Below, in pieces: positions 370 to 58,400 of a stretch of DNA of 64,000 nt. This DNA comes from Cordylochernes scorpioides (taxonomy: Eukaryota; Arthropoda; Arachnida; Pseudoscorpiones; Chernetidae): positions 26,414,947 through 26,478,946 of the forward strand of contig CP092865.1 of assembly GCA_030710605.1 (NCBI GenBank), written 5' to 3'. Made by a program: the position numbers and the translations under genes. How positions within the stretch are numbered: position 1 is the first letter of the stretch; each line of letters begins with the position of its first letter. The notes beneath the pieces are model-generated. The model saw nothing but the letters and a program-made list of their open reading frames with translations, did not search any database and was not told the DNA's origin.

Positions 370-1240
370 TGCAACACCTGCCGAGAAGTCCTTCTGTTTT
401 CTCTGAGGAAGGTGGTGAAGACCTCCAGGATTGGATAAAAGGCTATAAACACGTGACAAGACAATAATTAGAACAAAACCTTGTTGGTCTTACAACGTAT
501 ACTTCTACCTCAGTGGAACTTCTCTCAAGTGGTCTGTGAATAACGAGGAAAGAATAAATACTTGGCGTCTATTAGTAAGTGTATTTGGGGGAAAAAAGTT
601 TTAAAATGCAAGCTGAGAAAAAAATAACTCAAAACTCGGACACAGATAGAAGGTCAAAGCACCGAGTTTTACATACAAGATGTTGTGTGTCTCTGCTGGG
701 AAGTGGATGCCGGAGGAAGAGAGACTATCACATCTGATGAAGGGAGTAGCGGAGGAAGTATACCGGTATCTTATGCTGAGAGACATAGTGATGACGGATC
801 AGTTTATCGCAGAGTGTCGCCGCGTTGGGACGTTCCAAAATTCGAGCGCTTGCCCAATGTTACATCGCTCGGTGACCTGGGAGACGTGACGGATCTACAG
901 TCTTTGATAAGACAGATCGTTAGGAAAGAGGTGCAGCGGGCTCTAGCACCACTACGAGAAAACCAATAACCTTCTTTCTTGAAGAAATTGTAAAGGAGGA
1001 AGTCCTCGTTCCTCTGTCGGGAATAAATACCTTCCCATCGGAAGCGGCTGTGAAGTCAGCACCACGGAACTATGGAAAGCGCATCTAGTATGCACCTAAG
1101 GTCGAAGCAAGACGCTGGAGAAACTTAGTTTGGAACGCTAATGAGTGGAAGACTCCAGACGGTACGCACGTGTGCGTCCCCTGTGGACGGCCCGGCCACG
1201 TTGTCCGCTATTGCCGCGGCAGAAGGAGGTTGTTTGATAA
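370..1240 (+). pseudogene. gag remnant of the Ty3-type element
   Basis: Structural polyprotein remnant. A conceptual reading across frames gives EDLQDWIKGYKHVTR near 405-450, then about 690-970 the MPEEERLSHLMKGVAEEVYRY and SLIRQIVRKEVQRALAPL segments typical of arthropod Ty3 gag. Near 1168-1210 a CX2CX4HX4C zinc knuckle can be read (CVPCGRPGHVVRYC), which in intact elements binds RNA during packaging. Stops and at least two frame changes interrupt it (for example around 480-600 and 880-1000). The upstream boundary is uncertain; gag-like sequence could begin nearer 230. Confidence 0.75.
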
Positions 1241-1299
1241 GAAAATAGACGAAATTCTGTTATATCCGAGCGGTTCAGAGTATAAATAAAAAAACGCTA

Positions 1300-1850
1300 T
1301 TTACCGAAACCGTCGTTGTATTGAAAGTTGCTGACGATAAAGTGATTGAAACCAAAGGACGCTGTACATTGAAGTTGGAAGTGAATGGACATCTCGAAAA
1401 CTTTGAATTCGTCGTTTTGGAAAATTGCAGTCATGATGCGATTCTGGACTGGGATTTATTTAAGGCGACCAACGCGGTTATCGACTGCGGTCTGGGCGAA
1501 CTACAACTGGACGACCTCCCAGACCTAGACACCGAGGGTAGAGATGACGGAGTGTACGCTGTCCAAGACTTCGTTATCCCCGGGAGATCTTCTCAGAGGA
1601 TAAGCGTCGTCTATAGATCTATCGTAGGAATTATAAGTATGGAGGTTAGATGTCCTAAAGAACTATTAATTCGTAAAGAACTGATATTTCCTTCTTCGTT
1701 TATTGGAAATATTTGGATAACTAACGGCGGACTTCTACCTCAAATGATCCCGAAAGGAATGAACTTGGGTAGAATGTGCGATGTTGAGTCGGGACACGTG
1801 TGCCCATTGAATGTCGAACCGGGAAGTTCCTCGAGGGAGAGAAGATTATG
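1300..1850 (+). pseudogene. Retropepsin-region remnant
   Basis: An open stretch from about 1321 to 1851 contains ENCSHDAILDWDLF, matching the C-terminal half of Ty3-type aspartic proteases (usual form: C-x-DAILGWDFL). The catalytic D-T/S-G triad should lie just upstream, but the sequence near 1260-1310 is interrupted and I cannot read it. The following 100 codons are the variable linker before reverse transcriptase. Non-functional. Confidence 0.65.
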
Positions 1851-2054
1851 AAAGCGACTGCCTGTCCTCCCTGATCAACTCCGATCTGCCCAAGGAAAAG
1901 AAAGAAGATTTAATGGGGCTGCTGTGGTTTTTTAAAGACGTTTTACTTCCCAAGATGAAAAACGTAAACAAGGTACAGAACAGAGTAAAACACCGGCGAC
2001 CAGCCCCCTATAAAGCAGCGCCCATATCGGGTATCTAATAGAGAGAGAGAAATA

Positions 2055-3235
2055 ATGCAGAAGGAAGTCGAGACCATGCTAGAGAGAAAGGTAATTCAGC
2101 CATCTGAGAGTCCCTGGTCGGCCCCTGTCAAGAAGAAGGAGGGCACATGGAGATTCTGCGTGGACTTCTGGCGGCTTAATCACATCACCAGGAAGGACGC
2201 TTACCCATTGCCCCGCATTGATGACGTCCTGGATCATCTGTCCTATGCCAGGTATTACTCGACCACGGACCTGAAGACGGATACTGGCAGGTAGAGGTGG
2301 ACGAGCGAGACCGCGAGAAGACGGCGTTTGTTACTCCGGATGGATTGTACGAGTTCATGGGGATGCCTTTCGGACTGTGCAATGCGCCGGAAACATTCGA
2401 AAGGATGATAAACAATGTGCTCGTGGGCCTCAAGTGGAACATTTGTTCGTGTTATTTGGACGACATTGTGGTCTACTCTTAGAACGTCTGTCTAAGGTTC
2501 TGAGCTGTCTTCAGCAAGCGAGGCTGACTATAAATCCAGAGAAATGTCTGTTTGGATCAACAAGAATAAAAATCCTTGGTCATGTGGTAGATAAGAGCGG
2601 CATACAACCCAAATCGGAAAAGATCGAAGCCATAAAGTAGTTCCCTGTAACCAAGTCCGTCGGTGATATTAAAAGCTATCTAGGATTGTGCTTCTACTAC
2701 AGAAAGTTTATCAAAGATTTCTCCAAAATATTTCTGCTCCTCTATACACAATCTCCTGAAAAAGATAAAACATTTATATGGACACAATTTCAAAAAGATT
2801 CATTCGAGTCCCTGAAGGAAGCTCTAATGCAGAATCCGGTATTAGGGCATATTAAAGAAAGTGCCATCACTAAACTTCATACTGACGCCAGTAGATATGG
2901 TTTGGGTGATGTTCTGGTACAGATTCAGGAAAATCTATAGAACACTCACTGGCGGAAAAGAACTACTCCATCATCGAACGAGAGTGCTTCGCAGTCATTT
3001 AGGCAATTGGAAAGTTTCGTCTATATTATATGGAAGTCCTTTTGAGGTTATTTCGGACCATCATTCTTTGCGCTGGTTGGCTGGTCTGAAGGACACTTCT
3101 AGAATATTATCAAAATGGGCCCTCAAACTACAAGATATGTCGAAGTAACCATCGGCTATAAAAGCGGGGTCAAGCACAAGAACGCGGACAGCCTATCGAC
3201 ATACCCACTACCAGACTCGCCTGGATTGACGTAGC
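2055..3235 (+). pseudogene. Reverse transcriptase / RNase H remnant
   Basis: RNA-dependent DNA polymerase remnant of the Ty3 pol. Recognisable motifs: PWSAPVKKKEGTWRFCVDFWRLN (2115-2180), KDAYPLPRIDDVLDHLSYARYYSTTDLK, then GLYEFMGMPFGLCNAPETFER and the catalytic YLDDIVVYS box near 2455-2480. The first catalytic Asp in TTDLK is present but is followed by a damaged segment (TDTGR, then a stop at 2292). RNase H homology resumes at HTDASRYGLGDVLVQ near 2878. At least four stops or frame changes occur (2292, 2480, 2638, 2938). Confidence 0.85.
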
Positions 3236-4045
3236 TTACATTAGTAAAAGAACAGCACATAGTATAGATCCTGATATAATAAAAATTTCAAATGCCGTAG
3301 ACCAAGGTGAAGGAGCCAAGAGATTCGAAATGAAAAACGGCCTACTCTATAAGCGTAATTTCGATCCTTTGGGTAGACGTCTGCCATTGGTTATACCGAA
3401 GTGTATGAGATCAGATATCCTGAAGGAGTTCCATGAAGTGCCGACCACCTAGGTTTTACAAGGACCTACGACAGAATAAGGAAAATATAATTCTGGCCGG
3501 GAAAACAGCGTTCGACGTTATGTAGCCCATTGCAAGGAATGCCAGCGAAGAAAGGGAGAAAACAAACTGCCTGCTGGAAAATTGGTCCCCATTCAACCCC
3601 CATCACTTCCCTTCCATAAAATAGGCATGGACCTGCTTGGGAGGTTCCCCTTATCTGACAAAGAAAATCGATGGCTAATTGTGTGTACAGATTATCTGAC
3701 TAAGTATGTAATTGCCAAAGCCCTGTCATCTGGTACTGCTGCAAAAATCGCGACTTTCATACTTGAGGAAGTAATTTTGAAGCATGGCGCTCCACACGAA
3801 ATAATAACTGAGAGAGGTCAGGCCTTCATGTCTCATATGGTCAAAGAAGTCACTTCCCGTTGCAAGATAAGCCGCCTTTTCACCACGGCACCCTCAAACA
3901 AACAGAATGGGTGACATGCTTTCCATGTATGTGGACGCCGCGCAGAGGGATTGGGACAGCGTTTTGCCGTACGTCACCTTTGCTTACAACACGGCCCTAC
4001 AAGGAAACAATGCATTTTCTACTCTTTTTTGGGGTCGCGATCAAT
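3236..4045 (+). pseudogene. Integrase remnant
   Basis: The zinc-binding region survives as HCKECQRRKGENK near 3530-3565, then the catalytic core: GMDLLGRFPLSDKENRWLIVCTDYLTKYV (first catalytic Asp in GMD), HGAPHEIITERGQAF (the family has ITDRG; the second Asp is Glu here), and a frameshift at about 3905 before TSPLLTTRPYKETMHFLLFFG. The GPY/F tail is absent. The catalytic substitution plus the frameshift show it is inactive. Confidence 0.8.
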
Positions 4046-4198: not shown

Positions 4199-4328
4199 CT
4201 CCAGTGAGGAAGATCTCGACGTAGTTGGTAGCTAGAGTCCCAAGGTCTTGGCTGACTTGTCCCAGCTGGAGTAGCAGCCCGGACATAAGGACCATCAGTA
4301 GGAAGCTACACAGGATGCAGATCCACAC
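4199..4328 (-). CDS. IR-like exon D: M1 helix and pore approach
   Basis: Acceptor ..TAG|GTGTGG and donor GGAG|GTACAG bound a 130-bp exon of 43 codons plus one base. It starts VWICILCSFLL, a hydrophobic run of about 20 residues that fits M1, then a linker ending NYVEIFLTG. The Val-Trp start directly follows the FDYK end of the previous exon, matching the conserved VW at the start of M1 in IRs. The next exon should carry the pore but is not visible below 4199. Confidence 0.7.
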
Positions 4329-7300
4329 CTACACACCCTATGTTTCATATCCACAACTTCACACTCAGAAATAATCCAATCATAAATTTGAAGTCATATT
4401 TGCATCTAACTCCTTTCAAATGTATTATGGACCAATATCGGCTTTACCACAGTATCAGCTGGAATAACCTTTTGGCAGATACGGTCAATTTCACGATTCC
4501 TCAGTAGGATATCGTAACCGCTACTATACCAATAATTACACAGTCCAAAACCATGGTATATTGGTATTTTATTCATATTTTTCAAATCTAGAAAATATTG
4601 AGAATTTATTTATTTAACGCGTTTTTACAAAGGGATCCTTCATTTACACATGAATAAACATAAAGGTACAGAACTAATACTGAACTAGTTAATGAGATAT
4701 TTTATAAAGTAAATCTTAAAAAGGAAGGACCTTACATATTTTATTTTGTGTAAATTAATATAATACATCCACCCTAACCGCAATGACATTGTGATTTTAA
4801 ATTTCTCCCGAGGTTCAAAAGAACGATGAAGAATTACACAGCCGCTAACTTTGGATTTTCTCACCATTTACATTAGGGATTTTTAAAGTAAATTATACGG
4901 GAAATATTTTCTTATAAACCAATGAATAAAAGAGGATGAGAAAAAAGAAACTCTGAAGATCTATGGAGAATCTTAGATGGTAGTTAAAACTTCAAAAATA
5001 TATTAAAGAAAGTACCTTGAAATTTCTAAAGTTTAATACTGTATTCGAAATCGTAAATTATGCCAAATGTTGAGACCATTGATATGCAGAAAGTTCAACA
5101 GCATAGTTTGAAGGGTAGACTAAGTTAAGGAAGAGAATAGGGATTTACAGAAAGTCTCACCTTATAGTCGAAGGCGTGGACGAGGCCAAAGACAGACATT
5201 GGGGGTCTACAGGGAGTCTCACCTTATAGTCGAAGGCGTGGACGAGGCCAAAGACAGACACTGGGGTGTAGGGGTTGTAGCTGGAGAGCAGCGAGAGCTC
5301 AAAGACGTCGAGGATAGGTTCAGACATGTCAAAATGGCGGAAGGCCTGCTCCTCGGTGTAGTAGGGGAAGAACATGAGGTCGGTGTCCTTCACCCACGTC
5401 AGCTCTTACTTCACGTGTTTCCATACAAATCAACAAAGGCTGGTGGATTTAAAAGTCCTGCTTTCTGAATTGACCTTGAAGACATTTTAAAAAAACTCTT
5501 CAAAGTAGCGTAATCTCTTCTTATACTTGTAAAAGTCCAACTCCATCAATGCATGCAAATAACCAAATGGAGTCTATGGCAGCATATAAATGCAAAGGCC
5601 TGCATAGATCTACATGTGTAGATGTGTGGTGTACTTACAATAAAAGAAATCACCGTACACTATAAATATTGTGCTTTTTACTGAGTTTATTTGAATATTT
5701 TTAAAATACACAGAACAATTTAGGATATAAAAAAGCTAGCGATTAAATCAGTTACCAACGAATGCCATTTGTTTAAAGGGCCAGCTCACGATTGTAAGTC
5801 CTTCTAGAATGGTTCCTCTAGCATAGTTATTCTAAAATGTTCTTCTATAATGGTTGATCTAGAATTGAACCTCTAGAATTGTTCTTCTAGAATGGTGCAT
5901 TTAGAATGGTTCCTCTAGAATTCTTTTGCTAGAACGGTTTTTCAAGACTGGTTATTCGAGAATGGTTCTTCTAGAAATATTCTTCTAGAATGGTTCTTCA
6001 AGAATGGTTCTTTTAGAATGGTGCATTTAGAATGGCTCCTCTAGAATTCTTTTGCTAGAACGGTTATTCAAAAATGGTTATTCGAGAATGGTTCTTCTAG
6101 AAATATTCTTCTAGAATGGTTCTTCTAGAATGGTGCATTTAGAATGGTTCCTCTAGAATTCTTTTTATAGAATGGTTATTCGAGAATAATTATTCTAGAA
6201 TGGTATTCTATGTATAATGGTTTGTTCTAGAATTTATGTTTAAAACTAGTGCAAAATGATAAGTACACATTATTGAAACACTTTGTTATTTAACAATTAA
6301 TTTTCAACTTAAAAGCATCTTCAATTTAAAAAGTGGCACCAAATTTTTCCTCAATCCTGTATGACTTTTCTAATAATTATTTCTAGCTTTATCAACAAGT
6401 TCCGTAAAACGGATCAAGTTTGGAGATTTTAACGCAGTTCAACGTGCCTCTAAATATATTCGCTGTACTTCAGTCAACACTGCATATAGGCCAATCTCTC
6501 TCTTCACTTCTTAGATATAATGTATATTACAATTAAATCTAATATTTGCATTGGTTAATCTGACTTTGAATATATGCTCCTCCTCCTTCAATGCCTTCCT
6601 CTACTGAGGGTGGGCCACATGGTTACTCCATACTTCCTCCTTCAATGCCTTCCTCTACTGAGGATGGGCCACATGGTCTCTCCATATCTCCCTCCGCCAG
6701 CCTCTTCATCTCCTCGTGTCGTCCAGTCCATTGTTTTAGATCGTCTGTGTATCCCCGTCGTCGTTTCCTTCCCCTGGAGCTTTCCCTCCCATGCTATGAT
6801 ATATATATATATATTAAATACTATAACACAAGTTGATATAGTCTAATGGTGACGTGCGCTATATGGAGCTACTCACATTGTTCTGCAGTCTTCCAAGACT
6901 TCCGTAGAAAGAGCCGTTAGGCAAAAATCCTCCGAGATGTTCATTGGGGTAGTATTCCATATCATACCTACAACATTCCCTTCAAGGAATTATACAATCA
7001 TTTAACAGGTAATTTTACACACACATATATTTTAATGAAAAGTATTGCGAATATTTTAGAATAGACATTATTTACTTGTAGAGAGTGTTCAGGTGTTCTA
7101 GTGTAATGGTGTAGAATAGAAAGTTTCACAATTATATAAAGGAATAAAGAACATCTCTGTGAATATATACTCTTTTTCTCGAAATCTTCTCTCTTTCTAT
7201 CGTCCTGAGTGCTTCACAACGTCCATTAACCTCCTCACCAGCCAGAGCGCCGGGTACTGTATTCGGCATGGCTGCAGGCGCATCCTGTTGAAGAGCTGGT

Positions 7301-10300
7301 GGCGAGCTGGACTACCACCGTGGACAGGACTTCTTGGGCTGGCCTCCGTCACAACCGTTTCTTGGGCTGGCCTCCGTCACAACTGCTTCTTGGGCTGGCC
7401 TCCGTCACAACTGTTTCTTGGGCTGGCCTCCGTCACAACTGCTTCTTGGGCTAGCCTCCGTCACAACCGTTTCTTGGGCTGGCCTCCGTCACAACTGCTT
7501 CTTGGGCTAGCCTCCGTCACAACTGTTTCTTGGGCTGGCCTCCGTCACAACTGCTTCTTGGGCTAGCCTCCGTCACAACCGTTTCTTGGGCTGGCCTCCG
7601 TCACAACTGCTTCTTGGGCTGGCCTCCGTTATAACTGTTTCTTGGGCTGGCCTCCGTCACAACTGCTTCTTGGGCTGGCCTCCGTCACAACTGTTTCTTG
7701 GGCTGGCCTCCGTCACAACTGCTTCTTGGGCTGGCCTCCGTCACAACTGCTTCTTGGGCTGGCCTCCGTCACAACTGTTTCTTGGGCTGGCCTCCGTCAC
7801 AACTGCTTCTTGGGCTGGCCTCCGTCACAACTGCTTCTTGGGCTGGCCTCCGTCACAACTGCTTCTTGGGCTGGCCTCCGTCACAACCGTTTCTTGGGCT
7901 GGCCTCCGTCACAACTGCTTCTTGGGCTGGCCTCCGTCACAACCGTTTCTTGGGCTGGCCTCCGTCACAACCGTTTCTTGGGCTGGCCTCCGTCACAACC
8001 GTTTCTTGGGCTGGCCTCCGTCACAACTGCTTCTTGGGCTGGCCTCCGTCACAACTGCTTCTTGGGCTGGCCTCCGTCACAACTGTTTCTTGGGCTGGCC
8101 TCCGTCACAACTGCTTCTTGGGCTGGCCTCCGTCACAACTGCTTCTTGGGCTGGCCTCCGTCACAACTGTTTCTTGGGCTGGCCTCCGTCACAACTGCTT
8201 CTTGGGCTGGCCTCCGTCACAACTGCTTCTTGGGCTGGCCTCCGTCACAACTGCTTCTTGGGCTGGCCTCCGTCACAACTGTTTCTTGGGCTGGCCTCCG
8301 TCACAACCGTTTCTTGGGCTGGCCTCCGTCACAACTGTTTCTTGGGCTGGCCTCCGTCACAACTGCTTTTGGGCTGGCCTCCGTCACAACTGCTTCTTGG
8401 ACTGGCCTCCGTCACAACTGCTTCTTGGGCTGGCCTCCGTCACAACTGCTTCTTGGGATGGCCTCCGTTACAACTGCTTCTTGGGCTGGCCTCCGTCACA
8501 ACCGTTTCTTGGGCTGGCCTCCGTCACAACTGCTTCTTGGGCTGGCCTCCGTCACAACTGTTTCTTGGGCTGGCCTCCGTCACAACCGTTTCTTGGGCTG
8601 GCCTCCGTCACAACCGTTTCTTGGGCTGGCCTCCGTCACAACTGCTTCTTGGGCTGGCCTCCGTCACAACTGCTTCTTGGGCTGGCCTCCGTCACAACTG
8701 TTTCTTGGGCTGGCCTCCGTCACAACCGTTTCTTGGGCTGGCCTCCGTCACAACTGTTTCTTGGGCTGGCCTCCGTCACAACCGTTTCTTGGGCTGGCCT
8801 CCGTCACAACTGTTTCTTGGGCTGGCCTCCGTCACAACTGCTTCTTGGGCTGGCCTCCGTCACAACCGTTTCTTGGGCTGGCCTCCGTCACAACCGTTTC
8901 TTGGGCTGGCCTCCGTCACAACCGTTTCTTGGGCTGGCCTCCGTCACAACCGCTTCTTGGGCTGGCCTCCGTCACAACCGCTTCTTGGGCTGGCCTCCGT
9001 CACAACTGCTTCTTGGGCTGGCCTCCGTCACAACTGCTTTTTGGGCTGGCCTCCGTCACAACTGCTTCTTGGGCTGGCCTCCGTCACAACTGCTTTTTGG
9101 GCTGGCCTCCGTCACAACTGCTTCTTGGGCTGGCCTCCGTCACAACTGTTTCTTGGGCTGGCCTCCGTCACAACCGTTTCTTGGGCTGGCCTCCGTCACA
9201 ACCGCTTCTTGGGCTGGCCTCCGTCACAACCGTTTCTTGGGCTGGCCTCCGTCACAACTGCTTTTTGGGCTGGCCTCCGTCACAACTGCTTCTTGGGCTG
9301 GCCTCCGTCACAACTGTTTCTTGGGCTGGCCTCCGTCACAACCGTTTCTTGGGCTGGCCTCCGTCACAACCGCTTCTTGGGCTGGCCTCCGTCACAACCG
9401 TTTCTTGGGCTGGCCTCCGTCACAACTGCTTCTTGGGCTGGCCTCCGTCACAACTGCTTTTTGGGCTGGCCTCCGTCACAACTGCTTCTTGGGCTGGCCT
9501 CCGTCACAACTGCTTTTTGGGCTGGCCTTTGGACTTTGACGCGATTTTTTTTTCATTTTTAAATTAAACAATTTAATCTTTATGATGCATTAGCGCGCCA
9601 TCTGTTATCAAAATTCAAAACTATTATAGACGCGTATGATTATTTTTAAAAATAAACCATTTCTAATGTCCTTACTGCAATGGAAAAATTAATGGAAGGG
9701 CCTGGCTCATCAGTGGTGAACCCTCCCAGCGGTTTAGCCAGTTTAATCTACCATAAATGCAATAATTATTAAATTAAAATATTAATTAATTTTTAAAAAT
9801 TAAATTTAATATAAAAAAAATTCCACCACTGCGGCTTTGCCTGGACAAACAATGCTATCGACTATGAGACCATTCAAAACGAATTACCAGGGATATTTTG
9901 TACTAAAACTGAACAATTAATTCAGCAGGACTTAGCAAAAATGGATCATACAAGATTATATTCTAATTATAAATTATTATATAAGTATTTAATGCCTGAA
10001 TAATGTTTATTCTGGTACCTATCATTAGACATAAAAGGTTACATTACCCAAACAAGAATCACTTGAACCCTACTAAGAGAAAGTCACATTCGAATAATTA
10101 GAAAGGAAGATGTAATTTGTAAATTCTGAAAAATTGAAAGCATAGAATAAATTACCCACTACATCTCTGATTGCACTATTGTTAACGAGGAACGGAATAA
10201 GATTTTAAAGAACATTATCCAAGTCTACGTGAACCATTTCCGCTAATCAGAATAATGTCCGAGAAAAAATATATAGCGATAGAATTATTTAACTTTCATA

Positions 10301-11713
10301 AAGCGTTAGAGAACAAGGTAATCTCTAAGAACTAAAATTACAGAACAATTTCCTTCCATAGTTAATTTGTATAGTTATGTTGAATAGTTTGATTTCCTTT
10401 TCATTTTTCCTTCTCTCCTTTGATTATGTTTCTTCTTTACTTTTCTCCATGAAAATGATGTATGTCCTTACAGGACTGAAATGTTCTAATAAAGCTGTTG
10501 TTGTTGTATATTGGAGTTATTTATGTAGCGACGTTACAGAGACTCACTGACACCTCATTCTTCTGAGGAGTCAACAAGAAATAAATATATTGTTGAGCCA
10601 TCTATTATCCTTTTGAAACAATCGCGTAGTTTTAAAAACTTGAAAAAAAAATCATCTGAAAGAAGTCATATCCTTTTTATTAGAGATTTTTGATATGCGA
10701 ATCATTAAGTTACGTTAAATATTGTGTACTACTGGATAAAGCCCCTATAAAATGGCTAGGTTTTCCCTTAGTTTATTTTATCCGAGTCTATATAAAATAT
10801 AAAGCTCTTTTTTCTCTCAAATAGACTACTTGATTTATAAATTATATAACTTGTAATTATATATCTTGTATATAATTGTGGTAGGGGGTTTCGCCCCCTA
10901 CATAACCAACAAAGCGAATTGTGACTTTTACATTTGTACATACTCGTACACAGATACACAGATGAAGAAATACCTGTTCTAAACACAGATCTAGAGTGGA
11001 AGCAAGTCCAATGGCTTATTGAAGTTTTGCCTTAATGAGTTTTCATCATAATCATCATTTGCTTCTCAGATTGACGCGAAAAGACAGAATATTATCTAGC
11101 TCTGTGTAATAACAAGAATTCAAACCACTTCGTCTTTGCCAGTCCCAAGCCGGAATGAAAAAAGACCTGGGTGATCAGTAACAAGTTCGCAGAAAAAATA
11201 ATCCTGACTGATAGTTCCCTGTAAGAGCTCCTGATCCAGGGATACAGGATGTACTCCATGTTAGGAGCGACTGTACATGGCGTTTGTTCCTCATGTCAGA
11301 GGCGGCCATTTCATATTGGAGCTAAGCCTGCTACTGAGTAGTGCTCCCAGTCTTAATGACAAAGGCAGATACATTTTGCTTCTTTAAATCCTGATCTACA
11401 GTCATGACATCTTTACTCGATTGTGGGAAGATAGACAAGAAAACGAATTCAGACATTCATAGCGTGTTGAATTTAAAAAATACATTCAATTGTTTGAATT
11501 ATTATTCATAGCAATATTATATGTAAATTAGAATATTTCTGTTCTAAATTTTGCTACATTTTTTCTTCAAATTTTCAAATATTAAGGTATGACTACGTAA
11601 CTTACGTAAAGTTGAGGTATTGATGCAAAGTTCTGAAGAGTGTGCTCATGAAGCCTCCTTCAAGTTGGGTTGATCCGTCAGGGTATTTGTGATATTGGGA
11701 CATGCTGCCCATT
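4199..11713 (-). CDS. Ionotropic-receptor-like gene, partial (4 exons seen)
   Basis: Four minus-strand exons join in phase into one protein segment. It reads as the C-terminal part of ligand-binding lobe S1 (EGGFMSTLFRTLHQYLNFT|YDMEYYP, then LPNGSFYGSLGRLQNN), the S1/pre-M1 segment (FFPYYTEEQAFRHFDMSEP) and a membrane helix M1 (VWICILCSFLLMVLMSGLLL). This order is that of ionotropic receptors, the iGluR-derived cation channels used by protostomes mainly as chemoreceptors. The iGluR ligand-binding pattern I-T-x-x-R aligns with Y-T-E-E-Q, so the amino-acid-binding Arg is replaced, as in many divergent IRs. The N-terminus, pore, M2, M3 and S2 were not found; they should lie below position 1 and above 11713. 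Subfamily unknown. A divergent glutamate receptor is the alternative. Confidence 0.72.
4330..5140. other. IR-like intron, nothing recognised
   Basis: AT-rich sequence between exons D and C. I see no coding segment, structured repeat or transposon motif here. Confidence 0.5.
5141..5266 (-). repeat. 62-bp tandem duplication of the exon C end and splice donor
   Basis: ACCTTATAGTCGAAGGCG occurs at 5159 and again at 5221, inside two near-identical 62-bp copies. On the minus strand each copy carries the last codons of exon C (HAFDYK) and the donor AAG|GTGAGACT. Only the proximal donor (exon end at 5223) keeps phase with exon D. Using the distal copy adds 62 bp and shifts the frame by two. Confidence 0.85.
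5223..5402 (-). CDS. IR-like exon C: end of S1 to pre-M1
   Basis: An exon of exactly 60 codons, phase 0 at both ends. Acceptor AAGAG|CTGACG, donor AAG|GTGAGA. The protein begins LTWVKDTDLMFFPYYTEEQ and ends SVFGLVHAFDYK. The E-E-Q-x-x-x-x-F-D-M-S-E-P stretch aligns with the R-x-x-x-(V/I)DFSxP segment of iGluR/IR proteins. The start was set by phase with exon B. Confidence 0.75.
5800..6235. repeat. TCTAGA-rich short tandem repeat
   Basis: Degenerate units of about 16-20 bp built around TTCTAGAATGGTTC, with TCTAGA recurring many times. A larger unit of roughly 125 bp also seems repeated: the phrase with GGTGCATTTAGAATGG occurs three times. It lies in the intron between IR-like exons B and C. 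Confidence 0.85.
6580..6690. repeat. Two tandem 56-bp copies
   Basis: TCCTTCAATGCCTTCCTC occurs at 6583 and 6639, inside two copies that differ by a few bases and end in CCACATGGT(T/C). The stretch is open in two plus frames, but nothing recognisable is encoded. Confidence 0.75.
6877..6967 (-). CDS. IR-like exon B
   Basis: A 91-bp exon: acceptor TTGTAG|GTATGAT, donor AACAAT|GTGAGT. Joined to exon A it completes a Thr codon (AC|G) and gives LNFT-YDMEYYP, the canonical end of the first S1 helix in ionotropic receptors. The rest, GGFLPNGSFYGSLGRLQNN, matches the x-(D/N)G-x-(W/F)-x-G-x-x-G-x-L-x-x-(G/N) segment of S1. Confidence 0.75.
7328..9532. repeat. 28-bp GC-rich minisatellite, about 79 copies
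   Basis: The unit TTCTTGGGCTGGCCTCCG plus TCACAACYGY recurs every 28 bp over 2.2 kb. Variation is almost confined to two C/T sites near the unit end (AACCGT, AACTGC, AACTGT, AACCGC), with rare other changes (GGCTAG early, GGGATG at 8456, one copy short by two bases near 8368). Because 28 is not a multiple of three and the plus unit lacks stops, all three plus frames stay open for more than 600 codons with the same 28-residue repeat. That is a by-product, not evidence of a protein. It lies inside the IR-like intron between exons A and B. Confidence 0.97.
9575..9770 (+). mobile_element. Long-TIR MITE family A, one arm
   Basis: One terminal arm of the dispersed family best seen complete at 29131-29560. 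It runs from TGCATTAGCGCGCCATCTG through ATTATAGACGCG and CTAATGTCCTTACTGC to the conserved core GGCTCATCAGTGGTGAACC and CCAGTTTAATCTACC. It begins some 45 bp after the end of the minisatellite. Confidence 0.75.
9850..10515 (+). pseudogene. LINE 3'-end remnant
   Basis: A conceptual reading gives TKTEQLIQQDLAKMDHTRLY then YKLLYKYLMPE, which aligns with the C-terminal part of the LINE protein at 33543-35519 (EQSIQTDQSRITNSKLHTHYKYL). A broken zinc-knuckle-like segment (CKF..., HYISDC, NEERNKI) follows near 10110-10200. The element ends with TAATAAAGCTGTTGTTGTTG at about 10490-10510, a polyadenylation-like signal plus short tandem tail typical of non-LTR retrotransposon 3' ends. Many stops; inactive. 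Confidence 0.7.
10515..11105. other. IR-like intron, nothing recognised
   Basis: AT-rich sequence with no motif or repeat I can identify. Confidence 0.4.
11110..11385 (+). repeat. Dispersed repeat, inverted copy at 46140-46425
   Basis: About 270 bp, from CGTCTTTGCCAGTCCCAAGC to AGTGCTCCCAGTCTTAATGACAAAG. The reverse complement of 46140-46425 carries the same blocks in the same order, including CCAGGGATACAGGATG and ACTCCATGTTAGGAGCG. Class unknown; the GTCTTTGCCxGTCCCAAGCC phrase suggests a retroelement untranslated region, but that is only an impression. Confidence 0.75.
11606..11713 (-). CDS. IR-like exon A: first part of S1
   Basis: Reads MGSMSQYHKYPDGSTQLEGG then FMSTLFRTLHQYLNF plus AC, with donor TTTAC|GTAAGT. 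Acceptor is either CCAG|AATGGG (start 11713) or GGCAG|CATG (start 11704); both give the same frame. The L-E-G-G-(F/Y)-x-x-x-L-(F/L)-x-x-L-x-x-x-LNFT pattern is the signature opening of the IR/iGluR ligand-binding domain. The acceptor lies within the first unit of the 34-bp array that follows it. Confidence 0.72.
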
Positions 11714-11945
11714 CTGGAACATCAGGGCATATGGCCATGTTATTCATCCTAAACATCAGGGCATATGGCCATGTTATTCATTATAAACATCAGGGTATAT
11801 GGCCATGTTATTTATTATAAACATCAGGGCATATGGCCATGTTATTAATAATAAACATCAGGGCATATGGCCATGTTAGTCATTCTGGAACATCAAGGCA
11901 TGCGGTCATCTTATTCAATATAAACCTCAGGGCATATCTGTCCGA
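11706..11945. repeat. 34-bp minisatellite on the exon A acceptor
   Basis: AACATCAGGGCATATGGCC recurs at 11718, 11752, 11786, 11820, 11854, 11889 and (degenerate) 11923, with spacing 34-35 bp: seven copies. The minus-strand acceptor (TTCCAG, plus CTGGAA) of exon A is part of the first unit and appears again in the sixth. Confidence 0.9.
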
Positions 11946-23644: not shown

Positions 23645-23924
23645 TATATTGGATTAATGATATTTGTATCCTGATAAAGTTATGAATATTACTTCTTGAA
23701 TAGGTAGTAATTGTGATTAGGCTGGATTATGCGATGTCGTCCAGATTGGTGTCCACTCATTGTATCTCTTCCTGTAAAATTGGTGACTTCTCTAGATGTG
23801 TCTGTGTAGAAATCATTGAATACCAAATATTTCTACTTGTCAATATAGATTTGATCCAACGATATCTCTGCACAGAACTCTTAGCCGTGACGCCACAATG
23901 ATCAATTCTTTAAACTTTAGAAAT

Positions 23925-25395
23925 GGGTGGCCTTCTAAAACCATCGGCCAGATCTTGCAGCCATGGTGCAGCATTGATCAATTACTTGAGAATTTTCAAC
24001 GGGCAGCCTCTAAAACCCTCGGCCAGATCTTGCAGCCGTGGTGCAGCATTGGTCAATTTCTTGAGAATTTGAAACGTGCGGCCTCTAAAACTATCGGCCA
24101 GATCTTGCAGCCGTGGTGCAGCATTGGTCAATTTCTTGAGAATTTGAAACGTGCGGCCTCTAAAACTATCGGCCAGATCTTGCAGCCGTGGTGCAGCATT
24201 GGTCAATTTCTTGAGAATTTGAAACGTGCGGCCTCTAAAACTATCGGCCAGATCTTGTAGCCGTGGTGCAGCATTGGTCAATTTCTTGAGAATTTGAAAC
24301 GTGCGGCCTCTAAAACTAGCGGACACATCTTGTAGCCGTGGTGCAGCATTGATCAATTTCTTGAGAATTTGAAACGTGCGGCCTCTAAAACTATCGGCCA
24401 GATCTTGCAGCCGTGGTGCAGCATTGATCAATTTCTTGAGAATTTGAAACGTGCGGCCTCTAAAACTATCGGCCAGATCTTGTAGCCGTGGTGCAGCATT
24501 GGTAAATTTCTTGAGAATTTGAAACGTGCGGCCTCTAAAACTAGCGGCCACATCTTGTAGCCATGGTGCAGCATTGGTCAATTTCTTGAGAATTTGAAAC
24601 GTGCGGCCTCTAAAACTAGCGGCCAGATCTTGTAGCCATGGTGCAGCATTGGTCAATTTCTTGAGAATTTGAAACGTGCGATATCTAAAACCATCGGCCA
24701 GATCTTGCAGCCATAGTGCAGCATTGATCAATTTCTTGAGAATTTGAAACGTGCGGCCTCTAAAACTATCGGCCAGATCTTGTAGTCATGGTGCAGCATT
24801 GATCAATTTCTTGAGAACTTGAAACGTGCGACCTCTAAAACTATCGGCCAGATCTTGCAGTCATGGTGCAGCATTGATCAATTTCTTGAGAATTTGAAAC
24901 GTGCGACCTCTAAAACTATCGGCCAGATCTTGCAGCCGTGGTGCAGCATTGATCAATTTCTTGAGAATTTGAAACGTGCGGCCTCTAAAACTATCGGCCA
25001 GATCTTGCAGTCATGGCGCAGCATTGATCAATTTCTTGAGAATTTGAAATACGGCTTCTAAAACCATCGGCCAGATCATGTAGCCGTGGTGCAGCATTGG
25101 TCAATTTCTTGAGAATTTGAAAGGTGCGGATTATAAAACCATCGGCCAGATCTTGTAGCTGTGTGCAGCATTGATCAATTTCTTGAGAATTTGAAACGTG
25201 CGGCTTCTAAAACCATCGGCCAGATCTTGTAGCTGTGGTGCAGCATTGATCAATTTCTTGAGAATTTGAAACGTGCGGATTATAAAACCATCGGCCAGAT
25301 CTTGTAGTCGTGGTGCAGCATTGATCAATTTCTTGAGAATCTTCAACGGGCAGCCTCTAAAACCAGCGGCCAGATCTTGCAGTCATCGTGACGCT
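23925..25395. repeat. 75-bp tandem array, about 20 copies
   Basis: GGCCAGATCTTG recurs every 75 bp (for example 24021, 24096, 24171). Since 75 is 25 codons, long frames stay open on both strands. The minus frame gives a repeating RLQDLADSFRGRTFQILKK unit of 25 residues, uninterrupted from 24731 to 23982. Frames break at small indels near 25050 and 25155. Variants fall at few sites; the change in the Leu codon is silent on the minus strand, but Arg/Trp, Asp/Ala and Thr/Ile changes are not. A decayed protein-repeat gene is possible; a non-coding satellite is equally possible. Confidence 0.9.
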
Positions 25396-49389: not shown

Positions 49390-49473
49390 CTAGAGCAGAG
49401 TGTCCCCCATGTTACCTATGTGTCTATCCTCTATGTACTCTAGCAGGGTACGATACAGGAATTCGTACTGGCC
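49390..49473 (-). CDS. PTP exon 11: C-terminus
   Basis: Acceptor TGTTTAG|GGCCAG. Reads [18 protein letters not shown] then IGNMGDTLL and TAG (49390-49392). The QYEFLYR phrase is the last helix of a PTP domain. Confidence 0.92.
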   Translation of the reverse strand, partial: GQYEFLYRTLLEYIEDRHIGNMGDTLL

Positions 49474-52400
49474 CTAAACACACACAAACTTTTGGTTAGC
49501 CATTCATTTCACATTCTAAAAGTTGTTTTAACAAAGGTAAAACCCAAATATTTCAGATACAAATAGCGCAATTCTACAAAAATTGGTTAGGTCGGCAAAC
49601 TGTGGCTCGTGAGCCACATGTGGCTCTTTGGATGTGAAGCTGTGGCTCTTTATATAGTTCCATACGTAAATATTATTTATGCGAATACTATTTATTGTTG
49701 GCAAGAAAAATAAGGTTGTGGCTCTTTAAAAATTGTAAATTGTAATTTTTGACTCTTCCGACCCAAAAGTTTGCCGACCCCTGGGTTAGGTGTGGTTATT
49801 AATGTGTTTATAGGAAAGACTATAAATTCAAGGAAAGGCCCAAGTAGGATAGATTCTCTAATAAAATGCTATTTTCTCCAGGAAGAGGGTCTGAATCACT
49901 AGAGCCTATTGCAATAAAGTGTAAACCATAAATGCCAAAAAGAATCAAAATATTTGTTCAAGAATAGGAAAGGCCTTCACCAGAGTCTGCTGTAAGAAAG
50001 CTATAACCCAAGTAAGTAAGATACGTAGAGAGAGATGATTTCTTCAATTGTCCAAGAAGAATACATACCACAGTCTGATGTAAAAAAAGACCAAGAATGG
50101 TATCCCAGATATTCCCCAATCATCCAAAAAGTAAGGCATACATACCAACGTCTTCTGTAAGAAGCTAAGACCCAGGATTTTAATATACCAAATTTATCGT
50201 CCAAGAGGCATACATACCCGAGGTCTGTTGTAAGGAACAAAAACCCAGATTGCTATACCAAATTAATAGGTCAAAAGGCATACATACTAACGCTTTTGTA
50301 TGAAGCTAAGACCCAGGATTGCAATATACCAAATTTATCGTCCAAGAGGCATACATACCAACGTCTTTTGTAAGAAGCTAAGACCCAGGATTGCAATATA
50401 CCAAATTTATCGTCCAAGAGGCATACATACCGAAGTCCGATGTAAGGAGATAAGAATGCTACACCAGATTCCCCAAGAAGCCTACATACCAGAGCCTGCA
50501 GCATGCAGGGCCGCTGTGACCGCGTGTGCCGGGCGGACTGGAAGACGTCCACGCGGCTCTCCGCCCGCAGCTGCTGCAGCAGCACGTAGAGGGTGACGAA
50601 GACGGACGACCGCTCCCCACCGCCGCTGCAGTGGACACAGATGGGCGATGTCTCTAAGTTGTCCGGCGCCAGGGACGCCGTCTCCTCGATGAGGGCGACA
50701 AGGGACAGAGGCTGCACGGGCACCTGGACTCCGACCCAGCTCTGGAAGTGGAGTTGGACTAGATGGTGCTCCTCCCCGCCCTGGTACACACCACAGTTCT
50801 GGGGCCGGGCGGTAACGGGAGTATGATACGGGACTACAGGGTACAAATATCTAGTGGACACGATGACGGCAAGCTACAATGATGAAACTGAAGTATACAA
50901 TGCCTGAACGGGAAAATACAATGAGTAAACTTTAGGGTACAATGACAAAATTGCAGGATAGAATGACGAAGCTGCATGAAACAATAACAAAGCCAGGATA
51001 CAATGCCTGAAATGCTGGATACAATTATGAAACTATAGGATACGATCACATAAAACTGTAGGACACAATAACAAAACTGTAGGATATAATGATAAAATTG
51101 TAGGATACAAAGACAAAACCTCAGAGTAAAATGAAAACCTGTAGGGCATACATTGATTAAATAGCATTTCATTATAAAATCCATTATAGAAGAAAGAAGA
51201 GAAAGTCACCAAGAGAGAGAATTATGGGCAGGTAGGTGGTACCTTTGTGTTCTTGACGGTGAAGTCGCGGCGGACAAAGTGCGGAGACTCTGTGGCCACC
51301 GACGTGGCGGTGACCTGGACGTAGTCCCACTCCCGGGACTCCCCGGGGTCCGGCCAGAAGGGCTGGCACCGCAACTGTCCCTCGCCCAGCTCGCTCAGTG
51401 TCACCAGCACGGTCACGTTCTGCTCCAGCAACATGCGCCACAGCTCTACGACCGTGTGTTCCAGCGGGTCCTGGGTGATGATGAACTTGCTCCACCGGTC
51501 GTAGCCCTGCACAGCCCACACATATATATTGTTGCACCAAGTTGCAGCTTTGCAGGGTCGTCGACCTTGGTTTCCTCCTTCTTGGTGTTATACACGTTTT
51601 CCGAGCGAGTTTCCATACTCAAAGCAAATATAGAAAAGTAAATAAAAATAAATTATCTTTGAAAGTTATTGTGTTTATTTATTCGTTGTCTTCCTCGTAG
51701 GTCGCGATCCGCAGTCTTGGTCTGGGTCCTCTCTCGCTCCAATAGGCAATCAAGATATATGTACAATAAAATATTATAAAAGGAATGATGATAATCTAAA
51801 TAATATGTTTTAAATAAATATTAAATATCATAGAATATTTTGAATAAATGTAGCGCGCATTAAAATTGATGCAACAATATATTGTTCTGAAAATCCATAC
51901 TTAAATCACTAGATAATATAAAGGCATAAATGGAATTGAATAAAATATTTATTTTTCAATATTTGGCTGGCTGAACGCCAACCTTTATCAAGGCATTACA
52001 TTTTTGTATAAACAAACTCAGCGCCGCATAGTGTTATAATATAACAGTTGAAATGATTGTTCTTGCTAGGCGAAGCGCGTCGGTACCAAAATTATTTCAA
52101 CTGTGATATTATAACACTATGCGGCGCTGAGTTTGTTTATACAAAAATGTAATCTCTTGATAAAGGTTGGCGTTTAGCCAACCGAAATATTAGCAATAAA
52201 ATCTTTTATTCAATCCAATATATACCGTTATATAAAAATATTATCTTATTTAAAATTATATTTCATAGATACAAATACTCTGTTTAAATCGACCGCCAGA
52301 GGTCACGCTCCCCTATAAAAACTCATTGTTGTTATTTCCCGATGGCCGGCTCAAACCTTTTGTACATTATGTAAATAAGTTTTCTTTTTTTTTTTATTCT

Positions 52401-55400
52401 TATGCCTTAAGCCAGGCAGTAGTTTCATCAAATTGTTTTTTTAATGTATATTCCTTAGCTCAATTAAAGAAATCTCTGATCAAAATTATTTTATTATTCC
52501 CACAACTGCAAAACATTATCGTAACATACTCATGTATACCAAAATCAAGCAACAGCTAATCTATATATATAAAAATGGATGTTTGTTGGTCCGTCCGTCC
52601 GTTTGTCAGTGATAATCTTCTACATCGCTCAACCAATCGTGATGAAACTTTGGGAAGATGTTTAGTATACTACCGGGATGGTTTATGGCTAATTACTCTT
52701 TAGAAATAACCTTTCGTTGCATTTTTATTTACAATAAAACGTAAATTCACTCGCAATCTGCGCCCCTCTCGCGGCAGACGGGGGATGGCGGCGCGCGACG
52801 ATTGGCTGCCGGCGCAGCACGTGACCTCCCTGCCTCCCCCCGCCGAGTAAATGAGATCTCCCGGCTGACGGCCGAGCAGCGCCCTCTAGAACGCGTTACG
52901 ATTTTGACGGCGCGGGGCGCTCCCGGTTGGACAGTTGCGCGGGGGCAGAGTGACCTCGCGGGTGCCCTCCGGGAACTACGTCCATCTTCCATATGTAATA
53001 TACATTTAATCGTGTAAACCCGGGCGTTGCCCGGGTCATTCGTCTACAAATTCGCAGTAGTTCACTAATTCAAACCAAAATATCCATACATAGGTAAAAG
53101 AATACTGGGAAGACTGACATTTATTAATGCAGTGATTATAATCAATGATTACAATGAAGGGCTATATTGTCTATATATATAAAAATCACTTTCAAATATT
53201 AACGTAACGTTCCATTCTCAATCCCGTTGGGCTTTAGATCGGCTAAAACATTTTTATCTTTATTAGTGAATATTAACTTTACTGTACTGAATAGTTTAGT
53301 ATAATGTTAATTCAACATATTACAATTTAGCCACTGCAACGCGTGGCCGGGTTCGCTGTGTAGTATACTATCAGGACGATTTCTGGCGAATTATTTTAGA
53401 ATAATATTTATAGCAATAAATATAGCGAAATTAAGACGTAGTGATAATATTCTGTGTTTGTGCATATATAAATATTTTACAGAAAATGTGAGAACGTTCT
53501 ATTAGAATATCTCGAAAACAAAAAACAATACATATAATAACATATACAATATACAATACATATACATTTTATCTTTATAAGTGAATATTGACTTTACTGT
53601 ACTGAATAGTTTAGTATAATGTTAATTTAACATATTACAATTTAGCCACAGCAAGGCGTGGCCGGGTCCACTAGTAATATATAAATAACAATAAAAATAG
53701 CAGGAAATCTCATTCATCTTTATTTATAACATATATATGGTAAAATATTTTGTTGAGATGAGAGATTAATTGTTGGTTCTTTTGATACATGAGCATTTCA
53801 TGTTGGTGTAGTCGTGGCATCTTGAAAAAAAAAAACATTTTCTATTATTATTTGTTTTAATTGAGCGATTATGAAATATATAAGAATAGAATGCCTGATT
53901 TAAGGCGTAAAGAAGAAAATAAAAGATTACATATTTACATATCTACAAAAATATTTGAGCCGGTCAACGGGAATCCACAACAAGGAGTTTACAAAGGGAA
54001 AGTCGCGACATCTGGCGGTCGACTTAACAGAGTAGTTTGTTTTTATAACAATATAATTTTTATTTAGAATAAGTTTTTATATAACACCTATATGTAGATG
54101 TAAATTTTGCCGGGAGGAAATTGACCTATAAAAGCAATGGTCGCCTCTTCCGTCAAATTAAACGTTCAAACTAGGTGCCATCTATTGACCGTCGCCACAA
54201 ACTAGCGGCCTCGGGTCGGTGACAAAGCCACAGCACTAGCTTTGGCAAACTGAGGAGCATTCATCTGGAGACCATGGTTTCGGAATAATGTCCCTTTTCA
54301 GCCCAGGACGGACCTTATTAATCTGCCAAAGAGGTTCTTTAGCTGGCAAAGTGGCTAGGCCAAATCTATGGCCAAAATATAGATGGAAATATATTGTCAG
54401 GAGAAAAATCACCAATGCAAATGCATTTTAAATTTTATGGTTAACAAATAAAACAGCATTTAAACCAATGATGTTATAATATTTAAAATATGAAGCTAAA
54501 AACATAAAGAATAAAATAAACATATCTTAAAGGTTTTCCTGGTCTGCATTCATAGTTTTTTTTTAGAAAGGAGGAGTCCAGAGCAGTTTTCTATATTGAA
54601 CATTTGGCAGACAGGGTTGACAAACGTATTTGAGGTGGTTGCGCGGATGCTCGCGGGATGTTTCACAATTACCTCAAACATGTTTGTAGATCCTGTCTAC
54701 CTGTCTGTCTGTTATATGTTTCACTTTATCTTGACGACAATAAAGATTTGGGTCGAAACATTGAGAAAACCATAAAAAAAAACTTTCTCTGGCCGAAATG
54801 TTCTCATCCCTAAAGAAATTCCAGTTTCCTCCAGCTTACCTGGATGAAGGAAGCGTTGATGTACGTCGATTGGTTCCTGTACGGTGACGGGGGTAGGATC
54901 ACCCGGTTGGCGTCATCTGGACAGGTCACGTGTTAGCGTGTGTCATGGGACAGGAGGTTGGTAGCTCTCACATGGGATGATGAAGTCATATCTGTTCTTG
55001 TTCATGTTGAACTCCATCGTGCCCACACAGGCGGACTTTGGGTCTTCGATCACCTCGCTCAGTTTCTGACACAACACCATAGCGCCGATATAATAACCCA
55101 TTTTTATAAAGTTTTGACGATTACAATTTTCCAACATAGCATTTTTCCCTGAATGAATGGGTCAATAGGAAGATGATACAAGATCATGAACTTGACATAC
55201 GACGGATATTTTTTAAATTATAAAACTTTTGTAATCTGAAACAAACCGAACTGTCTTTGCAAATATTATGGGAGGGACAGGTGCCATCTCAGGATTAGAT
55301 CGTTTAGAAAATTTTAATGCCGTTTTTGCGCTCTTTTTATGTAAAAATGAAGATAGTATAATATAAAGACATACATAAATAGAAAATATAGACAGACAAT

Positions 55401-58400
55401 ACTCGCCCTCTGTTTGAAGCTAAGTTAGGGTTTCCAGTCGGTGCCGCAATACGTAGAGGTGATACCAGAAAAGAAGTAAGGGACTCACCTCAAACTCCAT
55501 CTGGAACCCAGTCTTGTTGGCCTGTGGAGAGGTCTCCCGTAGAGCCAGGCAGTGGTCCCGGATGTGCTGGACCTCGAGTTCTGTGTCGCCGAACTGGGCG
55601 GCTTCTAGCAGGGCGCGGTACACGAACATGTACTGTTTCTGTACCACGCACAGCACAGAACATTACAGTAGGTAATAAATATGGTACACGGGGGCATGTA
55701 CTGTTTCTGTACCATGCACAGCACAGAACATTACAGTAGGTAATAAATATGGTACACGGACATGTACTGTTTATGTACCACGCACAGCACAGAACATTAC
55801 AGTAGGTAATAAATATGGTACACGGGCATGTACTGTTTCTGTACCATGCACAGCACAGAACATTACAGTAGGTAATAAATATGGTACACGGGGGCATGTA
55901 CTGTTTCTGTACCATGCACAGCACAGAACATTACAGTAGGTAATAAATATGGTACACGGACATGTACTGTTTCTGTACCACGCACAGCACAGAACATTAC
56001 AGTAGGTAATAAATATGGTACACGGGGGCATGTACTGTTTCTGTACCACACATAGTACAGTACATTATAGTAGGTAATATATACGGTACAAGGAAGATGT
56101 ACTGTTTCTGTACCACGCGCAGCACAGAACATTACAGCTGGTAATAAATAACGGAGAACAGGTGCTTATTCAATAGTATAACACAAAGCCCATTGAATGT
56201 AATAAGGGCATCTTTTGTACCATAGAAGTTATGAACATAAAAACATGTACTGTTTCTGTACCACACACAGTACATTGTCAGAACATTACAACAGGTAATA
56301 AATAACGGAGAACACGTGATGATTTAATAGGATACACAAAGCCCATAGAATGTCGGCATCTTGTACCATAGAAGTTATGAACACAAGAACATGTACTGTT
56401 TCTGTACAACGGTAACACAGTACATTGGCAGAACATTGCAACAGGCAATAAATAACGGAGAACACGTGATGATTTAATAGGATACACAAAGCCCATAGAA
56501 TGTCGGCATCTTGTACCATAGAAGTTATGAACACAAGAACATATACGTTTATGTTCAAGATAGAGCCTGACAATGTCAGATTATCTTGTATCACAGATGG
56601 TGTAAGCAAAGCATGTACTGTATCAGTACAATACATGGTTCAAGGAATCTCAGACCAGACTACGTGACTGTATTATCGTTCACTGCATAAACAAGATTAC
56701 AAGAGGCGGAATCGTAGAGTATTATTTCTAAGAAGGGATAAAAACTAACGGCAAAAATTTGTAATTCTTTATTAACGAAGTATAAGCTTGGCGTTATATC
56801 TGGTTAATAGAGAATCTCGTCGTTGTTAACTTTTATCCCTTTTCATAAACAAGATTTACACTGGCAAAAAACATGGTAAAAAGTATCAGAATGATTGGAT
56901 TTCCTATCCCCAACGTCGGTCATTATTTATCGTTATCTCTGTTACGAAGATATTGGATAAGTGACATCCAGTTGACGTCTCTTCCAACATTTAGTTCATG
57001 ATCAGGTGATAACGTCACACCATCAATGATTGCGACACTTTAGGATGTCAAATCACTGTAGCCTTCGCATAGAGCATCACCTATGCAATATTTACACAAG
57101 TAGTGAACAACATTTGTCTTTATACATAATTGAGTATTTGTAGCATTTTGTATCCGCTATATCAATTAAAAGAAATCGACGGCGGAATGTCGATGAACTT
57201 TCACCATTTATCGAGTAATTGGAAAATTCACGACTCGTAGAAGGCTTTGGCTTTGTTGAGGAAGAATCCATCGAGGAGAGTTTTGACAACTTCCGAAGAA
57301 TATAACTCCACGCCGTTAAGAAACGTTTTAAGGAGAAAGGTCAGGGGAGTATGTATCAAAACATCAGGGCAAGTAGGACTGAAGTAAACTATGTCATCAT
57401 CATGGAATAAGTACAAACAACAACAACAAGGATGGTATATCATCACCACCACAAAGAGTTTGTACCAGAGATTGAACGAGGAAGTTCCGCTGTCTCCTCA
57501 GGCTGGCCACGGCCTCGTAGACGTCGACCTGCCCCTCCTCCTCCAGCTGCTGCAGGAGCGTGTCGACCGCCACCAGGGTCCCCGTGCGGCCCACACCGGC
57601 GCTAGACCCACAGACGTCACAGCCAGTCCATCACTACACAGGCGTCTTCAACAGACCTGCAGTGCACCAGCAGAGGTCCGCGGTCCGAGCAGTAGTGCTG
57701 GTTGACCCTCTTGATGAATCGGAGCAGCCAGGAGGGTTGTTCGGGGGCCAGGAAGTCCCTCCACTGGGTGTAGTGGAAGTGGAGGACCTCGCGTTCATTG
57801 CCTCCTCCTTCCTGGTTGGGTCCGGCGGGCTGCGACCACAGTTTGTTCCTTCAACAATTTCTACATCTGCTGTGAGAGCTGTTTAGGATCATTACACTTC
57901 TAAACACCTTACTAGCCTTCTTTCATCCGAGAGACGTCATATATTTGTAGCAAATGAGGACAAAGACATTAAATAGTAAGTAACAGTGTGTAATTATAAA
58001 CATTTATATTTGAAAACTGTGGTCTTGAGTGACTCTGTGATCATGCGAATGTATCAGTTCCATCTGGGCTGATTTAGAATAAGCCACACACACAGCATAC
58101 ACACATATACATCACACACAGGATTCCAATGTGTTTAAATCATCCGTTACTCATTCGTCGCGACGCGGAAGAAGTATTCCCCGATTGATATTCATAAGAT
58201 CTCTGCAAATGTTTGCAAAACCTCTAGAAATAATCGTTAAATTTTGGAAAGAAATCCTTAACCTCTAAATCTCTAGAATTTCGATCCTTTTAAAAGTAGA
58301 CGAACTTTGCCTTCTTATCTCTCCAAGCTAAATCATTCATGGAGAAGTTCAGGAATCTTGCAGAGACGTTTTTTTTTTAAAGTCTAGAGCTATATGGGGG

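Follow-up and report, generated by a model that had tools for sequence, protein, structure and literature searches.

Among the repeats known from amphioxus are the so-called mirages, for which Canestro et al. 2002 (NAR, PMC117041) is reportedly the cited source. We describe here tandem arrays of the same anatomy in a pseudoscorpion, Cordylochernes scorpioides. The DNA analysed is a stretch of 64,000 nucleotides (the window; contig CP092865.1, positions 26,414,947 to 26,478,946 of the forward strand) from an assembly of 2.62 Gb in 24 contigs (GCA_030710605.1). Its two host genes, both on the minus strand, are a gene that by its predicted protein is a receptor-type tyrosine phosphatase (PTP) and a gene that likely encodes an ionotropic receptor (IR-like), a label taken over from an earlier note on this DNA. 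The anatomy was found at two borders of the window and at four sampled borders elsewhere in the genome. Minisatellites in this genome probably arise by short tandem duplication in the intron next to exons, at times straddling the splice junction.

In the portion of PMC3087553 that is available, mirages are minisatellite-like tandem duplications across the intron-exon boundary, at donors or at acceptors, with units of 10–160 bp. AG or GT is present in many of their units, not in all, their copy number is unstable, and reverse-transcription PCR (RT-PCR) is cited there as giving no sign of disturbed splicing. More amphioxus genes with mirages are named in the accessible part of PMC3902484, and the two sources describe them, in those parts, for a handful of genes. 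As far as these accounts go, the arrays reported here share the mirage anatomy and are a kind of repeat already known from amphioxus. The unit spans the boundary at the acceptor of PTP exon 6, at the donor of IR-like exon C and at four sampled loci (L085, L102, L136 and L099); donors are duplicated at exon C and L085, acceptors at exon 6, L102, L136 and L099. The splice dinucleotide is again kept in many copies and not in all, as at exon 6. Copy number is again unstable, in a sampled gene pair (L085 against L122/L124) rather than in the window arrays. As to undisturbed splicing, the exon phases, read from DNA, agree with use of the exon-proximal site.

Two further systems come close. Human segmental-duplication genes have internal tandem repeats at their exon-intron boundaries (PMC2812944, as far as accessible), and there, as here, copy number differs between recent gene copies; the human units average 30 bp and have transcript support for altered splicing, whereas our arrays are read from genomic DNA. 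Tandem duplication of exon sequence that bears AGGT has also been described as a source of new introns (PMC3443670, PMC2891723, both as far as accessible; PMC4974935, going by its title, belongs with them). Duplication likewise yields extra splice signals in the present case, but the copies lie in existing introns and no new intron is shown. With respect to ordinary intronic minisatellites, 15 of 28 arrays in our genome sample end at least 60 bp from the nearest sampled exon, and the border arrays differ from these in including the exon edge.

Arrays at the exon borders of the two host genes and at sampled loci

The acceptor of PTP exon 6 (55489..55638, minus strand like all exons and border arrays given below; 150 nt, phase 0 to 0) is a clear case of a unit that contains both the exon edge and the splice site. 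A 66-bp array of 8 copies, detected by Tandem Repeats Finder (TRF) at 55617..56150, has a unit composed of the intron end, the acceptor and the first ~22 nt of the exon. Upstream of it, a 150-bp array (x2.9; TRF 56125-56558) has units bearing two more copies of the acceptor motif, at 56255 and 56401. Altogether the acceptor has 9 extra copies of ~66 bp, 2 of them within the 150-bp array, and in 8 of the 9 the AG is followed by AAACAGTACAT, the exon start. The copied exon start aligns with QYVFIYQALLE of PTPRA (6uzt), so that the piece of exon which the unit includes is conserved coding sequence. As this edge is old coding sequence, the copies in the intron would be secondary. An in-frame stop is located just upstream of exon 6. 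A query of three units from the array matched only its own locus in the genome, in a search that skips very common words, and a mobile origin of the unit was dropped on this result.

The donor of IR-like exon C (5223..5402; 180 nt, phase 0 to 0, set by GT-AG and by phase with exons A, B and D) is the second clear case. A 62-bp unit containing the 3' edge of the exon and its donor is tandemly duplicated at 5146..5269 (TRF 5146-5266, x2; 95% identity in the unit stack), and the duplicated segment includes ~44-47 nt from the end of the exon plus the GT. The proximal GT (5222-5221) and the duplicate GT (5160-5159) have identical local sequence and score 5.1 each; only the proximal one keeps the phase from exon C to exon D. 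Since the exon phases require it, the exon-proximal site would be the one that stays in use.

The other arrays are less clear. At the acceptor of IR-like exon A (11606..11713), a 34-bp array (x6.4; 11718..11937, by TRF and unit stack) forms the intron end. It begins 5 bp off the exon and abuts the acceptor; as a boundary-spanning repeat it is weak, CCAG being kept in 1 of the 6 extra copies. Beside the donor of PTP exon 10 (50490..50780), a decayed ~71-bp array extends over 50061..50489, and TRF delimits 50133-50431 (72 bp x4.2) within it. The true donor is at 50489, and donor-like GGTATGTA sites follow at 50430, 50358, 50217, 50145 and 50068. These five further copies hold little exon sequence, and 59 bp separate the TRF array from the exon; we regard it as a marginal case, a decayed donor-type array. 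The 462-bp intron between exons 9 (51243..51506) and 10 contains a degenerate 21-bp array (50875..51145), which TRF splits into 50875-51119 (21 bp x11.7, 67% matches) and 51050-51145 (42 bp x2.3). The array is ~95 bp away from the edge of exon 10 (50780) and 98 bp away from that of exon 9 (51243); it is an intron-internal array and not a border array. By reading, the introns that hold the exon 6 acceptor array and the exon 10 donor array occupy an equivalent position in the two paralogous phosphatase domains (between VQSL and KQYMF in one, between LQAL and GQYEF in the other).

All the arrays to which the earlier note had drawn attention are detected by TRF. Its count of five borders with an adjacent array, among fifteen exons, comes down to two clear borders and an abutting one, with exon 10 marginal at 59 bp and the 21-bp array too distant. 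It had placed the splice site within the unit at four of these borders, which stands for exons 6 and C and is weak for exons A and 10.

Outside the window, four arrays cross a splice site at sampled borders. The phosphatase locus L085 has at a donor a 39-bp unit (x3.9) consisting of the last 31-33 nt of the exon plus GTAGGTGA, in frame. The other three lie at acceptors: a 74-bp period (x5.4) including ~12 nt of exon at a myosin locus (L102), an 82-bp unit (x4.3) including ~6 nt of exon at a kinesin locus (L136), and a 37-bp unit (x12.2) that ends in CAG at another phosphatase locus (L099). The 3.9 copies of L085 stand against 16.9 in L122/L124, in stretches 50 kb apart with flanks 94% identical, which shows that copy number changes between recent gene copies. 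When 11 segment pairs were compared, 2 had arrays; one of these differs in length (1092 vs 844 bp) and the other does not. BLAST gave no match to L102 for L123, its candidate partner. The in-frame 39-bp array of L085/L122 (C5:27.99 and 28.04 Mb), would, if read through, add a 13-residue repeat, VGDVMLSELGNEK, to a phosphatase domain; a few copies into the array, L122 loses the reading frame.

Position of arrays around exons and rival explanations

The first rival explanation is chance: intronic minisatellites are many, some of them land on exon ends, and borders are not special. We consider this unlikely, although several figures fit it. In the window, free placement of the 10 arrays of at least 100 bp gives an expectation of 3.27 among 30 borders at a distance of 50 bp or less from an array; 3 are seen (p 0.53, with preliminary exon ends), as chance predicts. 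That null permits arrays to cover exons. If no array may overlap an exon by more than 60 bp, the borders with an array at 5 bp or closer number 3, where 0.27 are expected in the whole window (P 0.003) or 0.76 in its genic part (P 0.037), and those with one at 60 bp or closer number 4, where 0.52 (P 0.004) or, in the genic part, 1.42 (P 0.054) are expected; such an excess speaks against chance. As the window had been picked for its arrays, these tests are post hoc. The answer on enrichment hinges on whether the null allows arrays over exons.

The genome sample was taken from exon matches to three protein families of the same genome, phosphatase (109), myosin head (76) and kinesin (126), 311 in total. 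We analysed 147 of them, the rest being near-identical copies or left unretrieved; 144 lie outside the window and provide 288 borders. The 114 segments amount to 212.5 kb, the window's segments included, and the regions were picked blind to repeats. Unless stated otherwise, an array is a TRF repeat with a period of at least 15, a length of at least 50 and a score of at least 60. Prior to counting, 11 near-identical partner segments identified by BLAST among the first 60 loci were removed; the 80 shorter regions, unclustered, were selected by hand so as to leave out evident copies. Three sampled exons belong to the window; excluded from the 288 borders, they are still present in the 30-mer probe and in the coverage test of 127 exons given below. 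Sampled exons were delimited by the best-scoring GT or AG near the profile match, which may misplace their ends by some bases.

That array ends cluster near exons is supported in this sample, with small numbers. The density of exon-side ends is 13 in 27.2 kb (-35 to 60 bp from the exon) against 20 in 143 kb (100-1440 bp), a rate ratio of 3.4 (segment bootstrap 1.5-10.8, p 0.001). A test that confines each array to its own gap expects 5.1 of the 28 arrays to have their exon-side end no more than 60 bp from an exon, and 13 do (P 0.00025). Split by segment type, the same test gives 6 of 18 vs 2.8 in long segments (P 0.04) and 7 of 10 vs 2.3 in short ones (P 0.003); stricter array thresholds give 12 of 23 vs 4.4. 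When arrays were placed in any segment with exon avoidance, the 13 ends compare with 5.2 expected (P 0.001). The rate ratio of 3.4 and the 13 ends against 5.1 or 5.2 speak against chance placement.

A second group of results weighs against duplication beside exons, and part of it is what chance would give. Arrays cover 4 of the 288 borders; intron points drawn at random from the same segment lead to an expectation of 12.4 (P(<=) 0.001), rotation of the arrays within each segment to one of 10.2 (P(<=) 0.02). In the first 63 exons, 30-mers with a nearby copy (at least 24/30 matching) number 4 of 378 at borders and 79 of 1260 in introns. Arrays crossing a border or abutting it within 5 bp, taken with exon avoidance, are 4 against 2.8 for placement in any segment (P 0.31) or 6.4 in the same segment. 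For long segments alone the rate ratio is weaker, 3.05 (bootstrap 0.95-13, p 0.027). Same-segment placement with exon avoidance expects 9.9 ends within 60 bp where 13 are seen (P 0.12); we think that this null is over-constrained, because arrays cut by the ends of short segments can be re-placed only beside the exon. The proximity result as a whole comprises 28 arrays from three protein families, a small basis, and unrecognised exons in the flanks could push the expected number up.

Two further counts gave no clear departure from expectation: 8 borders vs 12.4 when counted on intron-only sequence (P(<=) 0.21), and 20 vs 17.3 borders within 50 bp of an array (P(>=) 0.34). In the test of 127 exons, array coverage is 0.13% within exons and 4.9% outside them; the latter, about one twentieth of the sampled non-exon sequence, favours chance landings. 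Splice sites are not clearly over-covered, probably because arrays over exons are removed, in line with the low coverage of exons. The earlier note had expected arrays to recur near exons beyond the window, and this is borne out by the four crossed borders and by the 13 of 28 ends, with the reservation that one stricter null leaves P at 0.12. That splice sites fall within arrays more often than by chance, a point which the note had put up for checking, finds no clear support under the nulls applied.

A second rival, to which we give slightly less credit than to chance, is dilution: old arrays far from exons would be broken or diluted as transposons keep inserting into the deeper intron, and the few tens of bases adjoining exons would escape insertion. 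It agrees with the fall of the array-end rate to background beyond 60 bp and with the mobile-element-like sequence recognised, by reading alone, in the window; the fall at 60 bp appears, in these small numbers, abrupt and not graded, which speaks against it.

The mechanism favoured by the earlier note, in which breaks or slippage at transitions from GC-rich exon to AT-rich intron actively duplicate exon edges, is improbable. Such transitions do exist, mean GC being 0.553 for the sampled exons and 0.371 for intron more than 150 bp away, and array ends do cluster by exons. The GC step, though, is no larger at borders of the array group (0.124, n 20) than at the others (0.148, n 268), and crossing of the splice site itself is without clear enrichment. 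The array group exceeds the 13 array borders because some segments hold several exons. Finally, that the arrays are retained for regulated alternative splicing, each unit providing a tandem splice site, is very improbable: the in-frame 39-bp unit of L085, readable as a 13-residue repeat, and the AG kept in nearly all exon 6 copies would suit it, but not all of the 62-bp and 66/68-bp units have a length divisible by three, a stop precedes exon 6 in frame and the frame of L122 breaks.

Gene models and neighbouring sequence

The ends of ten exons (IR-like A-D and PTP 6-11) were set by GT-AG and phase; for the five PTP exons upstream of exon 6 they are approximate only. PTP exons 6-11 join in phase into 319 aa that match PF00102 (E 3.5e-63), with PTPRA as closest solved relative (4.9e-101). 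Apart from exon 6, the assignment by phase includes exon 7 (54972..55065), exon 8 (54840..54916), exon 9 (PF00102 at 4.9e-18 for 51225-51587), exon 10, which belongs to the second phosphatase domain (PF00102 at 1.3e-20 for 50490-50789), and exon 11, the last coding exon (49393..49473). Further upstream, a putative intron of 55 bp (57602-57656, GT...AG) interrupts the signature motif of the first phosphatase domain. A long inverted repeat at 51950-52200, within a PTP intron, resembles a foldback element or a miniature inverted-repeat transposable element (MITE); the same intron may harbour, at 52560-53040, a non-autonomous mobile element of Helitron-like resemblance.

IR-like exons A-D join in phase into 169 aa, for which the sole Pfam hint is PF10613 (E 0.012, below the cut-off); searched singly against Pfam, the exons had no match. 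Exons A and B (6877..6967) were set by phase, as was exon D (4199..4328), whose 3' end is a GT picked by eye. The intron between exons A and B contains a 28-bp array (x78.6, 95% matches) at 7330-9528, whose plus-strand frames are open for more than 600 codons, which looks like repeat periodicity rather than a gene. A 75-bp minisatellite (x19.8, 92% matches) at 23899-25382 is distant from the exons seen. By reading, 600-4040 is a decayed retroelement with reverse-transcriptase-like and integrase-like frames on the plus strand, containing stops and frame breaks.

Elsewhere in the genome, exon-bearing stretches often recur as 95-99% identical copies ~18-142 kb apart, some on opposite strands (C1, C4, C9, C10, C15, C18); these are either recent segmental duplications or unpurged haplotypes. 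Kinase exons were unusable as an additional sample, the 134 scored of 1619 candidates being mostly full-length with a single open frame; the 135 kinase-domain matches listed are mostly apparently intronless and many are clustered, on C5, C7, C13, C20, C21 and C23 among others.

Probable origin of the border arrays and its meaning

Short duplication next to exons would proceed as follows. A segment would be duplicated beside an exon, sometimes across the junction, plausibly by slippage or unequal exchange and with copying directed from exon to intron. Of the splice sites one would remain in use, as would the original edge of the exon, and the extra edge copies would become decoys within the intron. 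The array would afterwards grow, shrink and homogenise as an ordinary minisatellite, and selection would act against arrays covering exons. A broader claim may be advanced tentatively, as one that we hold to be possible and less than likely: the ~60 bp beside exons would be a genome-wide birthplace of minisatellites, where a process linked to exon edges (for instance through transcription, splicing or chromatin) makes duplications; of the arrays close to sampled exons about half start there, some of them including the splice site.

The anatomy itself being known from amphioxus, the near-exon excess of array ends is possibly the new quantitative finding, and it needs the whole annotated genome. 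No profile of array ends around exons was found among the titles listed for the open literature, a search of titles only from which subscription papers are mostly absent. Mirage anatomy in an unrelated large genome, taken together with the density of arrays around exon ends and with a near-identical gene pair whose copy numbers are 3.9 and 16.9, suggests that there is a general way for introns to grow and for splice sites to multiply. If the sequence beside exons were indeed a genome-wide birthplace of minisatellites, it would provide a constant supply of decoy splice sites as well as material from which new exon ends and introns could form.

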